A stretch of 40,508 bases of DNA, from the NCBI GenBank assembly GCA_016218405.1, contig JACREE010000055.1:1-40508 (forward strand). The letters are read 5' to 3'. Positions 125 to 40,508 of this stretch are shown here, piece after piece; position 1 is the first letter of the stretch; each line of letters starts with the position of its first letter. The notes under the pieces are model-generated. The model saw only the letters and a list, made by a program, of their open reading frames with translations. It did no database searches and was not told the origin of the DNA. A program made the translations under genes and the position numbers. Origin of the DNA: Gammaproteobacteria bacterium (lineage in GTDB: Bacteria > Pseudomonadota > Gammaproteobacteria > HIGHO2-12-38-15).

Positions 125-205
125 GTGGGTACAACAGATTGGAATGTGACGATGGGTCCTTTATGTTACAACATGGGAACCATTGGTATTCAGTTTGATC
201 CTTAA
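125..205 (+). pseudogene. Possible 3' remnant of an outer-membrane-protein-like gene
   Basis: On the plus strand a frame reads VGTTDWNVTMGPLCYNMGTI and then GIQFDP followed by TAA (203-205). The alternating hydrophobic/polar pattern at a C terminus is what a last pair of beta-barrel strands can look like, but the final residue is proline instead of the usual aromatic residue. Upstream the same frame stays open through the 121-bp repeat, where it is antisense to the small gene and so is presumably not genuine. This is a weak call based on pattern only. Confidence 0.2.
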
Positions 206-420
206 GTATCTTCAAGATCAACACCGTAGTATTCTCGCATCCATTTTCGCTCGAGATATTCTTCAATACTACGGCGCACGGTTACTGCTTTCTGGCCTGG
301 TTTCACCGCTTTCTTAGCGTTTTTTTCTTCTTCCAGCAAGGTATGGTAATTATCGTCTTGCTGTTCATCATCCACTTCTTCTGCACCCAACATCATGTCC
401 GAAGTTTCTTTTGCCGCCAT
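202..420 (-). CDS. PA3496-like small charged protein
   Basis: This 72-residue acidic-then-basic protein has no signal peptide or membrane segment. Residues 1-30 are rich in Asp and Glu, and residues 31-48 are Lys-rich. Residues 49-64 carry RRSIEEYLERKWMRE, a motif I recognise from the short gammaproteobacterial proteins typified by Pseudomonas PA3496, whose molecular role is not established. The start ATG (420-418) is preceded by GAGGG about 7 bases upstream. The gene lies downstream of the FAD-linked dehydrogenase on the same strand, 90 bases away. It has a truncated duplicate to its left. Its 5' leader (428-466) is nearly identical to the leader of anmK at 40178-40215, which is odd for unrelated genes. 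The family assignment is moderately certain. Confidence 0.7.
   Translation of the reverse strand: MAAKETSDMMLGAEEVDDEQQDDNYHTLLEEEKNAKKAVKPGQKAVTVRRSIEEYLERKWMREYYGVDLEDT
222..342. repeat. 121-bp direct repeat, copy 2
   Basis: Second copy of the repeat at 1-121, lying inside the intact small gene at 202-420. Identity ends abruptly after base 342, at the codons for residue 27 or so of the protein. Confidence 0.9.
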
Positions 421-5452: not shown

Positions 5453-6805
5453 CTATCGAGTTGGGAAAACGACAGATCCTAATATACCAGAAGCAAAAAT
5501 GAGCGGTATTCCGTACAATGCCCAATACCATGTATAAAGGCCTTTATCACCAAAAATATAATAACAACCAATTCCCCATATCAAGCCTATTATGATGCTG
5601 ATATAAACACCGAATCGAGAAGTTTTTTCCCAATAAAAGCCAGACAATAAAGCGAATGACAAAGCAACGATAGGGATATTTGCCAATAACATTTTATTAA
5701 AAACCTGGTCAACAAATAAATTTGCGCCGTAATAAGATAAAATAGCGCACATGATTGTCATCAAGACACTAAATTTTAATGTATTAGCATTTTGTTTTCG
5801 AGGCAAATAACCTATTGTTAATGTCACCATTGCACTCCATACACCCGCCAAGGTAGTTGCTGCAACACAAAATAATATGCCATACGCTAACCCTCGCAAC
5901 CAAACCGGCAACGCAAAATGAATTAAATAAGGTAAAGCTAATTCAGGCTGTGTTAATGCAATACCTTTTAATTTTAATAAACTCGTTGCAATAATACCTA
6001 TACCATAGAATAAAAAAATTAATATGGCAGCACAAATGACGGCCAAGAAAGCTGTTCTTGGGCTATCAGCTGCTACAATTTTTTGACCATACCAAGGTGC
6101 AAGAATATAACTAAACATAGTCAACAAAATCAATGAAATGATAAATTGTGTTGGTAATATACATTGCATTTCCTGTAACGTTAAAGAAGGAACAGGTTCT
6201 AGATTAGACAAGTGCCAAGTATAATAAAGCAGGGTAGGCAAAAAAAATAAAATGATAATGAAGCTGATAATATCAATACGGATAATAGAGATTAAACCTC
6301 CTCGCAATGTCATGAGTAAAATCATAAAAACAAGCAGTGCACTCAAAATCCATGAATTATGCAATGGAAAAACGGGTAAGAAAACAAGTGTGAGTGATTT
6401 AACATAAGTAGCGCTAAATCCGATCATTGCTAAAAATAATATAATAGCTACAAAATATCCTACATCACAACCATAACGTTCAGAAAAATAATGAGCAACC
6501 GAGATGCCATTAAAAATTTTCCATTTTTTTGCAACTGTGATTGCATAAAATAATAATCCAATCAAAAAAACAAAAGGTAATGTTAATGCCCACCATGTGG
6601 CTGTATAGCCCAGAGCGGAAAATGAGATTAATGTTGAAGTATTAAATTCCGTCATGACAAGTGTTGCAATAAGTGCGAGTAATCGAGTTTTTCGGTTTGC
6701 TAATAGATACTGACTTTCTGAATTCACTTGATTGGATTTTTTTAACCCGGCGAAAATGATCAACCCAATAAACAAAAAGAACAAAACCGTGTCGAACCCC
6801 CCCAT
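5453..6805 (-). CDS. Sodium:solute symporter (SSF) family transporter
   Basis: This 450-residue integral membrane protein has about 12-13 hydrophobic segments. The N terminus (GGFDTVLFFLFIGLIIFAGL, then SESQYLLANRKTRLLALIAT) matches the first helices and loop of SSF symporters, where the conserved stretch before helix 2 sets the sodium-binding region. TEFNTSTLISFSALGYTATW corresponds to the unwound helix region. Its length is slightly below the 480-550 usual for PutP or ActP. The substrate is unknown: SSF members carry proline, pantothenate, acetate, sugars or other solutes. AGGGATAAG precedes the ATG at a good distance. Gene remnants lie upstream, and a Cys-rich mini-ORF lies downstream. Confidence 0.85.
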   Translation of the reverse strand: MGGFDTVLFFLFIGLIIFAGLKKSNQVNSESQYLLANRKTRLLALIATLVMTEFNTSTLISFSALGYTATWWALTLPFVFLIGLLFYAITVAKKWKIFNGISVAHYFSERYGCDVGYFVAIILFLAMIGFSATYVKSLTLVFLPVFPLHNSWILSALLVFMILLMTLRGGLISIIRIDIISFIIILFFLPTLLYYTWHLSNLEPVPSLTLQEMQCILPTQFIISLILLTMFSYILAPWYGQKIVAADSPRTAFLAVICAAILIFLFYGIGIIATSLLKLKGIALTQPELALPYLIHFALPVWLRGLAYGILFCVAATTLAGVWSAMVTLTIGYLPRKQNANTLKFSVLMTIMCAILSYYGANLFVDQVFNKMLLANIPIVALSFALLSGFYWEKTSRFGVYISIIIGLIWGIGCYYIFGDKGLYTWYWALYGIPLIFASGILGSVVFPTR

Positions 6806-29360: not shown

Positions 29361-29473
29361 ATGCGAAGAGATCGAGCTGAAATGTCCCAGAGATCGCCAC
29401 GATCTGAAGACGAAAAAACCGGAACATGTTTGTTAGTGGCGAGATAGGGGTAATTCAGTTCGAGGATTCGCAT
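29361..29473. repeat. Long imperfect palindrome between gyrB and ettA
   Basis: The left arm starts with ATGCGA right after the gyrB stop. The right arm, read in reverse complement, starts with ATGCGA at 29473. Matching blocks in order are ATGCGA, CGA-CTGAA, CCC and TCGCCAC, giving arms of about 40 bases with roughly three quarters identity. The whole gap is 114 bases up to the ettA promoter. It could fold as a terminator-like hairpin, but no clear T-tract follows. Confidence 0.65.
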
Positions 29474-29495
29474 CTTGACGTACGATGGGTATAAT
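29467..29495 (+). promoter_or_regulatory. Predicted ettA promoter with a palindromic -10
   Basis: TTCGCA at 29467-29472 and TATAAT at 29490-29495 are separated by 17 bases. The -10 lies at the centre of the 13-base palindrome GGGTATAATACCC (29487-29499). Predicted transcripts would have a leader of about 33 bases. Confidence 0.5.
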
Positions 29496-39058: not shown

Positions 39059-40168
39059 CTAACCCCCCCAAATCCCACCCAATACAACCGCTTTTTTCGC
39101 ACCCGTCACGCTAGGAATATTACCCGGTTGGTTTTCCAAACGTCGTTTTGCCAACCAAGCAAAGGCTGCCGCCTCCATCCAGTCTGGATCAAAGCCCCAT
39201 TGGGCCGAAGACCCCACAACGCGCCCAGGCAGGGCTGTTTTGAGGCAAGCCATCAGATGATGGTTATGTACCCCACCACCACACACAATCACACAGGCCG
39301 CATCAGGCGCAGCTTGTTTGATGGCTTGAGCGACACTCTGCGCCGTCAAGCTCGCCAAGGTGGCCTGCACCACTTCAGGAGCAAGCTGCGCACCCGAAAA
39401 TGCATCCAATTTTTGATATAGCCAATTCAAATCAAAACATTCACGACCTGTGCTTTTGGGGGGAGGCAATGAAAAATAAGGTTCCTCTAAAAAATGGGCT
39501 AATAAAGCTTCATTCACCGAGCCTTGCTGTGCAAATGCGCCCCCTTCATCATGCGATTTACCTAAACAAACGTGTATCCAATCGTCCAATAAACGATTAG
39601 CAGGCCCCGTGTCAAATCCCGTCACGGGTGAGCGCGGATCCAAAACCGTAATATTGGCGATCCCCCCTAAATTAAGAACAACCCGCACTTCTTGTGGATC
39701 AGCAAAAAGGACTTGATGAAACCCCGGCGCCAAGGGCGCTCCCTGTCCACCTTGAGCCACATCTGCTCGCCTAAAATCACTGACTGTGGGTATACCCGTG
39801 ATACTCACCAAAGTATTTGGATCGGTAATTTGAAGCGTAAAAGCGTGTGCACCCACAGGGCGGTGACGAAGTGCCTGACCGTGACTGCCTATCGCCCGGA
39901 TCGCCGATTTCGGCAACCCACTTTTCGCCAATAACTTTAATGTGGCATAGGCAAAACGCTCACCCAAGATTCTATCCATTCGCCCCATTCTATCTATTTC
40001 ATTTGAACCCGGCTGGGTCAACAAAAAGAGTTGTTCTTTAAACTTTTTTTCATAAGGCTCGAAATAAGAGGCGACCAATTGCGGCTTAGCCTGAGAAAAA
40101 TCCACGATCGCCGCATCAATCCCATCTAAACTCGTGCCCGACATTAACCCTATATATAAATTAGACAT
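39059..40168 (-). CDS. anmK: Anhydro-N-acetylmuramic acid kinase
   Basis: The 369-residue sugar kinase of the ASKHA fold phosphorylates and opens 1,6-anhydroMurNAc released by lytic transglycosylases such as MltB, for recycling. Diagnostic segments are YIGLMSGTSLDGIDAAIVDF (5-24), AIGSHGQALRHRP, VVLNLGGIANITVL, GFDTGPANRLLDDW and VCGGGVHNHHLM. AAGGAG (40181-40176 on this strand) lies eight bases before the ATG and is inside the stem of the long palindrome 40169-40337. If that palindrome is transcribed, it could hide the ribosome-binding site. It diverges from tyrS, its frequent neighbour. Confidence 0.96.
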   Translation of the reverse strand: MSNLYIGLMSGTSLDGIDAAIVDFSQAKPQLVASYFEPYEKKFKEQLFLLTQPGSNEIDRMGRMDRILGERFAYATLKLLAKSGLPKSAIRAIGSHGQALRHRPVGAHAFTLQITDPNTLVSITGIPTVSDFRRADVAQGGQGAPLAPGFHQVLFADPQEVRVVLNLGGIANITVLDPRSPVTGFDTGPANRLLDDWIHVCLGKSHDEGGAFAQQGSVNEALLAHFLEEPYFSLPPPKSTGRECFDLNWLYQKLDAFSGAQLAPEVVQATLASLTAQSVAQAIKQAAPDAACVIVCGGGVHNHHLMACLKTALPGRVVGSSAQWGFDPDWMEAAAFAWLAKRRLENQPGNIPSVTGAKKAVVLGGIWGG

Positions 40169-40337
40169 ATATATACTCCTTATACCCGAAGATACTCGTT
40201 TTGACTTTGTCTTTTTTGTAAGGTAAAACTTTCTCTCGCTCGCAATAGAACGGGCTATTACTCGTTCGAGAAAGAATTTTACCTTACAAAAAATACTTCC
40301 TCAAAATCCAGTCCCTTCGGGTACAAGGAGTATATAA
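40169..40337. repeat. 169-bp near-palindrome between anmK and tyrS
   Basis: Both arms, read inward, give TATATACTCCTT, TACCCGAAG, TTTTGA and then TTTTTTGTAAGGTAAAA with TTTCTC. The centre near 40253 is AATAG-aacggg-CTATT. The arms are about 84 bases with an estimated 80 percent identity. Each outer arm carries AAGGAG facing outward: on the left it serves anmK, while on the right (40325-40330) it is followed by no start codon. Part of the left arm (40178-40215) recurs at 428-466. A mobile palindrome or a duplicated and inverted gene leader are both possible origins. Confidence 0.85.
40178..40215. repeat. anmK leader copy of the shared leader repeat
   Basis: These 38 bases match 428-466 with four substitutions and one gap. 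In both places the segment ends at the ribosome-binding site of a minus-strand gene. Confidence 0.75.
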
Positions 40338-40377: not shown

Positions 40378-40508
40378 ATGTTATCAGAAAACAATGAATT
40401 TGAACTCATCAAACGAGGGACAGCTGAAATCTTACTCGAAGAAGAACTGCGTGAACGCTTAAAGCAAAACAAACCTTTGCGCATCAAAGCAGGTTTTGAT
40501 CCCACCGC
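40378..40508 (+). CDS. tyrS: Tyrosyl-tRNA synthetase, 5' part
   Basis: Only the first 43 codons are in the window. The reading [20 protein letters not shown], then [21 protein letters not shown], is the typical TyrS opening just before the HIGH-type motif; GFDPT is diagnostic. GGAG at 40367-40370 gives a good ribosome-binding site seven bases from the ATG. The gene continues past the right edge. Divergent anmK next to tyrS is common in gammaproteobacteria. Confidence 0.9.

Follow-up and report, generated by a model that had tools for sequence, protein, structure and literature searches.

What is the long palindrome that stands between the divergent genes anmK and tyrS, and what does it do to anmK, whose Shine-Dalgarno sequence lies in it? 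A sequence-only reading of the window (the whole stretch of DNA that was analysed, 40,508 nucleotides) had taken one imperfect inverted repeat to be the entire space upstream of anmK, and had seen in it either a switch or the footprint left by a palindromic element whose insertion captured the leader. Here, we find the imperfect inverted repeat at 40170-40336 and, inside it, a mobile unit that runs from TATA to TATA at 40172-40334; 43 nt are left between this element and the tyrS ATG, so that the repeat falls short of the whole space. We refer to the element family as F1. The features of the locus are:

40172-40334, strand not applicable: F1 MITE copy of 163 bp, TATACTCC...GGAGTATA, an inverted repeat with an extreme fold and 85-89% identity to ten other full copies
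40176-40181, minus strand: AAGGAG, the anmK Shine-Dalgarno sequence, in the left terminal inverted repeat and 7 nt before the ATG (spacing computed)
40325-40330, plus strand: AAGGAG again, mirrored in the right terminal repeat, where no start codon follows; its complement is predicted to pair with the anmK Shine-Dalgarno sequence in read-through RNA
39059-40168, minus strand: anmK, anhydro-N-acetylmuramic acid kinase, 369 aa (Pfam AnmK, E 6e-140; NCBIfam NF007139 above cut-off), with its ATG at 40168-40166
40378-40508, plus strand: start of tyrS, divergent from anmK, with its own Shine-Dalgarno sequence TTGGAG and its ATG at 40378

The palindrome is confirmed and goes far beyond what chance would give. 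Folding predicted for the RNA of the two strands gave strong stems of -73 and -89 kcal/mol (z = -10.6 and -11.8, about -11 on both), and 0 of 200 shuffles folded as well. The real anmK Shine-Dalgarno sequence does lie in the left arm and its mirrored partner in the right, both as the earlier reading had described them. No gene lies inside the element; F1 units are 163-164 bp long and their ends are complementary over about 20-33 bp. We take the divergent gene to be tyrS from the intact neighbour in the congener (genome G001) and from what is known of TyrS.

Is the palindrome peculiar to anmK? A search of the source genome (1.67 Mb, 85 contigs) for the arm sequence returned many copies, so the case of an arm found nowhere else falls away: about 11 full F1 copies lie on different contigs, together with several partial ones. 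The full copies are 85-89% identical to the anmK copy, and their strand-corrected alignment spans 164 columns with a mean column identity of 96% and a 164-bp consensus. An apparent presence of the F1 core in two orientations was rejected as a strand artefact of the first alignment. The ends read TATACYCC...GGRGTATA and the insertions are at TA; TATA bounds the full copies except for one diverged end of copy C18 and one end of copy C17 that reads TGTA. With three or fewer mismatches, 99 sites in the source genome match the end motif versus 3 for a reversed control, a total that includes sister families with the same kind of end (F2, 183 bp; F3, 182 bp; F4, 104 and 183 bp). F1 itself matched nothing in 35 other genomes, including the congener, so that among these it is confined to the source genome, and it was not found in collections of plasmids, phages and viral contigs.

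A direct view of the insertion comes from the ubiA-hemE junction. In the congener the element is absent, UbiA ends VNYYL* and the ubiA TGA overlaps the hemE ATG (AATTATTATTTATGAAG). The source genome (copy C54) reads GGCAAACTATACC...GGGGTATATAATTTATGAC here, i.e. GGCAAAC-TA-(160 bp)-TA-TAATTTATGAC, and joining its flanks by a single TA yields ANYNL* with the same overlap of ubiA and hemE. F1 thus went into a TA and duplicated it. With the insert, translation of ubiA runs into the entry repeat and finishes there as NYTPCT*, while the apparent Shine-Dalgarno sequence of hemE comes from the exit repeat. The congener's gap between anmK and tyrS measures 42 nt and has neither the element nor a recognisable anmK Shine-Dalgarno sequence; the gap in the source genome would be 48 bases without the element. 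No flanking repeat longer than TA was seen at the other F1 copies. The gene for a GH13 glycosidase beside a further copy was not found in the congener, which thus offers no empty site there. The palindrome is almost certainly a non-autonomous MITE whose TA target lay three bases before the anmK start codon, and the notion of a footprint is borne out by its many copies, its TA insertion, the empty sites and the several leaders taken over. F1 is probably a new MITE family of the IS630 type with an unusual candidate translational role.

Duplication of TA points to transposition of the IS630/Tc1-mariner type, which we regard as the probable origin of F1. In genome G024, an end (TATAGCCATTCCACCTCAAGATGCGAA) stands beside a broken IS630-family (DDE_3) transposase gene, and the F3 end matches it at 23 of 27 positions, compared with 14-16 for the best shuffles. 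Since F1 itself matches the same end at only 17 of 27, its tie to IS630 runs through F3 and F2. No autonomous F1 copy was found in the source genome, and multicopy elements are often lost in assembly gaps. The one IS630 transposase of the source genome was dismissed as the source of F1, as no matching end lies within the sequence examined, which runs to the contig edge. A 1.4-kb unit with F1-type ends (C67) was likewise rejected as the autonomous parent, for it carries a 410-aa ATPase-like gene and no transposase. That unit (L104, 3515-4926), abutted by a 183-bp F4, could be cargo moved by its ends. In G024 (C223; L159, 1024-1992), a broken IS630-family element whose end matches the MITE superfamily appears to have inserted at TA in an IS3-type orfA.

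Does the element serve the gene next to it? A start codon lies 0-6 nt beyond the F1 end at 7 of 13 assessable left ends versus 0 of 13 right ends (Fisher p = 0.005, a test made after the pattern was seen), and all seven gene-bearing ends share one orientation (p = 0.016). Restricted to the five best-supported genes, the comparison is 5/13 versus 0/13 (p about 0.04). By a rough estimate that relies on a gene list made by hand, about 10% of the non-coding TA sites in the window are as near to a start. The genes at left ends, and the remnant in the window from which one of them starts, are:

anmK: the anmK copy, 40172-40334
hemE: copy C54
GH13 alpha-amylase-family glycosidase: copy C78
shikimate-kinase-like gene: copy C43, which lacks the right arm
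72-aa conserved ORF: window 202-420, minus strand, beginning directly at the terminal repeat of a remnant
422-472 of the window, minus strand: this remnant, the left end of a second F1 copy, with about 51 bp kept, the right arm gone and GAGGGA as the apparent Shine-Dalgarno sequence
small ORF before a MazF-like ORF: copy C36, named by eye, with no family match
small BrnA-like ORF: copy C18, named by eye, with no family match, at a diverged end read by eye

In 7/7 cases the purine stretch of the left terminal repeat sits at or near Shine-Dalgarno distance, reading AAGGAG, AAGGGG, GAGGGG, AAGAGG, GAGGGA or GGGGA among the copies. Right ends carry a similar purine stretch, yet a start codon follows in none of the 13. 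Very probably, then, the element supplied the Shine-Dalgarno sequence of anmK, and there is a strong case from sequence that the left terminal repeat, always the same end, acts as that of six further genes at other copies. The 72-aa ORF has a homologue in the congener that aligns from residue 1 (42% identity, E 6e-11). Two of the gene-linked copies, C43 and the one at 422-472, are reduced to the end that bears the Shine-Dalgarno sequence, their right arm having been lost. Elsewhere in the window, 2-127 is a 95% near-copy of part of the 72-aa ORF, i.e. a local duplication.

The arms of the anmK copy have changed together. Relative to the F1 consensus, the copy has six paired differences in the left arm and three in the right, and all three right-arm changes stand opposite left-arm changes (p = 0.0006). 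One pair turned the Shine-Dalgarno sequence from GGGG to GGAG with its partner changed to match, which explains the mirrored AAGGAG: the right-arm partner changed along with the Shine-Dalgarno sequence. Such concerted changes would reflect either selection for RNA pairing or template-switch correction of a quasi-palindrome.

How would a ribosome reach a Shine-Dalgarno sequence that is built into such a stem? We computed the energy needed to open 19 bases around the Shine-Dalgarno sequence and start codon in long, read-through transcripts and in internally started ones. Read-through RNA would cost 20.1-29.5 kcal/mol across the anmK, hemE, GH13 and C36 copies (25.7 for anmK; 20.1, 24.4 and 29.5 among the other three), compared with 5.7-8.4 kcal/mol if the RNA begins just after TAAAAT in the far arm; for 24 ordinary genes of the window the median is 7.9 kcal/mol (range 1.5-14.3). 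The contrast between long and short transcripts appeared in 4/5 intact copies in these computations, the fifth being C18 with its decayed end, where 11.6 kcal/mol (long) and about 8 kcal/mol (short) differ little. In three copies the internally started RNAs are still predicted to pair most of the Shine-Dalgarno sequence. Two promoter-like sites bear on this:

40276-40304, minus strand, toward anmK: TTGAGG (40304-40299), 17 nt, TAAAAT (40281-40276), with a presumed start near 40269; a consensus match only
40201-40229, plus strand, toward tyrS: weak mirror site, TTGACT, 17 nt, TAAAAC, the last T of the -10 missing

TTGAGG-17-TAAAAT directed toward the left end is present in 11/11 full copies (as TTGAGA in C17), while the mirror site mostly ends in TAAAAC and reaches threshold in 2/11. 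This asymmetry agrees with the position of all the genes at the left end. The site matches the consensus at 9 of 12 positions and a regional scan found 2 such sites versus 1.2 expected, no better than chance; its conservation may reflect just a recent common origin, given the 96% column identity, and is weak evidence.

We propose that the promoter-like site of the far arm would drive transcription of anmK. RNA started there would lack the outer arm at its 5' side and leave the Shine-Dalgarno sequence about as open as that of ordinary genes. RNA entering from upstream would contain both arms; its Shine-Dalgarno sequence would be locked in the long stem, possibly a substrate of RNase III, and such read-through RNA would not be translated. 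The lock would then amount to the read-through protection that some insertion sequences give their transposase genes, here exerted on a host gene. We give the internal promoter an even chance of being active, and put the chance that the lock is effective in the cell slightly below that. Taken as a whole, the proposal of MITE insertion, donation of a Shine-Dalgarno sequence, internal promoter and read-through lock appears reasonably probable to us. The candidate switch foreseen in the sequence-only reading finds support in the computed folding and in the promoter-like site of all 11 full copies. The likely internal start, which that reading had placed inside the left arm, would instead be in the right arm or the loop. 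The two readings offered there, switch and inserted element, are compatible and not exclusive.

Could the insertions simply have been tolerated? If a plain MITE with a purine-rich terminal repeat (AAGGGGTATA) were all there is, and insertions that separate a native Shine-Dalgarno sequence from its start codon survived only where this repeat takes its place, neither promoter nor switch would be needed, the hairpin would be a by-product and selection would only filter the insertions. TATA targets near start codons in an AT-rich genome would favour this, as would the likeness of both F1 ends to Shine-Dalgarno sequences and the truncated copies C43 and 422-472, which keep the relevant end without the promoter arm. 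A different MITE of the same superfamily in the congener also abuts a gene (L153, 1111-1295), giving ppiD (SurA_N domain) GAGAGG as an apparent Shine-Dalgarno sequence five bases before the ATG, its start reading GAGAGGTATCTATG. Simple tolerance would, however, leave unexplained why 7/7 genes lie at the left end although both ends resemble Shine-Dalgarno sequences, and how genes behind a locked Shine-Dalgarno sequence in intact copies are expressed without an internal start; we hold it possible, at well under even odds. We consider it unlikely that F1 acts in the manner of NEMIS/Correia elements, where RNase III would cut the hairpin in read-through RNA, set the mRNA level and perhaps free the Shine-Dalgarno sequence, so that the gene would be controlled by processing and not by an internal promoter. 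The long stem in the leader would suit this, and a Correia element in the leader of mtrCDE is reported to be cut by RNase III (PMC2649163); the F1 stem, however, is broken by mismatches. A dedicated cis-regulatory RNA of anmK (riboswitch or attenuator) that senses cell-wall recycling is most improbable in spite of the long structured leader and the Shine-Dalgarno sequence in its stem, as the same element stands before unrelated genes and at sites without a gene start, the congener and 34 other genomes gave no match, an Rfam scan of the whole window at the gathering threshold returned none, and the multicopy distribution of F1 rules out an anmK-specific device.

The proposed insertion with promoter and lock also bears on the gene upstream of each element. 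In the ubiA-hemE copy and in one between a response regulator and a kinase, the entry repeat (ACCTGA) provides the TGA that ends the upstream gene, and in four other copies a stop codon falls within 10 bases of the element. We speculate that a ribosome ending at the entry repeat would cover the strand that locks the Shine-Dalgarno sequence, so that neighbouring genes could stay coupled in spite of the insertion. Tentatively, and with less confidence than in the proposal as a whole, F1 might be viewed as a mobile gene-start cassette with its own directional promoter, a Shine-Dalgarno sequence in the exit repeat and a stop in the entry repeat, which could insert at operon junctions, shield the downstream gene against read-through and impose its own start signals, the end with the Shine-Dalgarno sequence being kept by selection after decay.

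Are comparable elements known? The ends of F1 presumably differ from those of the Correia/NEMIS elements (CREE), whose sequence is characterised by its ends, a core and, in the long form, an IHF site. RUP of Streptococcus pneumoniae (MITEs derived from IS630/Tc1-mariner) and Correia/NEMIS of Neisseria resemble F1 in being short (about 100-200 bp) and present in many copies, with inverted repeats, TA at their ends or as the target, a strong RNA hairpin and a frequent position upstream of genes, and Correia elements have outward promoters (PMC10969869, PMC2229807, PMC2649163). F1 is unlike them in that the terminal repeat itself would serve the following gene as Shine-Dalgarno sequence, in several copies and always at the same end. 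For CREE, one case is noted in which the element's final A doubles as the first base of an ATG, with no Shine-Dalgarno role in that account (PMC2649163). The words ribosome, Shine, RBS and start codon occur nowhere in the text of a 2024 review of prokaryotic MITEs (PMC10969869). Coxiella burnetii, a gammaproteobacterium with a small genome, has MITEs that also yield long palindromic RNAs, with promoters in QMITE1; compared by description, QMITE1 measures 300-400 bp and has direct repeats of 2-3 nt of variable sequence, and QMITE2 has repeats of 7-11 nt, where F1 has TA (PMC5896051). Among the open-licence papers searched, none turned up that describes repeated donation of Shine-Dalgarno sequences by a MITE family, which is not proof of absence. 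Occlusion of the RBS of a transposase gene is also known from IS10 and IS50. In IS200, one stem-loop stops impinging transcripts and another occludes the RBS (PMC3196728). The long transcript thus folds and hides the RBS as computed for F1; IS200, unlike F1, protects its own transposase, whereas the gene affected here is a host gene beside a non-autonomous copy.

Promoters, IHF sites and RNase III substrates are already familiar from bacterial MITEs. With a family that repeatedly gives RBSs to resident genes, hemE among them, a small transposon would have a direct way to rewire translation initiation, and such donation would account for the survival of insertions that lie only a few bases away from a start codon.

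Related elements occur around F1. Within the window, 29366-29493 lies between two genes and is probably a remnant of a sister MITE with an F3-like end (TCGCATCTTGACGTACGATGGGTATA). A 183-bp MITE family with near-identical ends (TATACCTCTCTTACCTGAAGATGCGAAC) is present in the source genome at C11:75248-75430, C18:14149-14331, C23:6938-7120, C34:4847-5029 and C50:24804-24986; several contigs break inside it, and it therefore probably fragments the assembly. An end-motif scan of genome contigs gave three records with one believable element, in a gammaproteobacterial MAG (L061, VFKP01000098.1): at 6430-6604, the same kind of ends surround a CGTCATTGCGA...CAATCCAG palindrome, apparently a repeat nested in a repeat.
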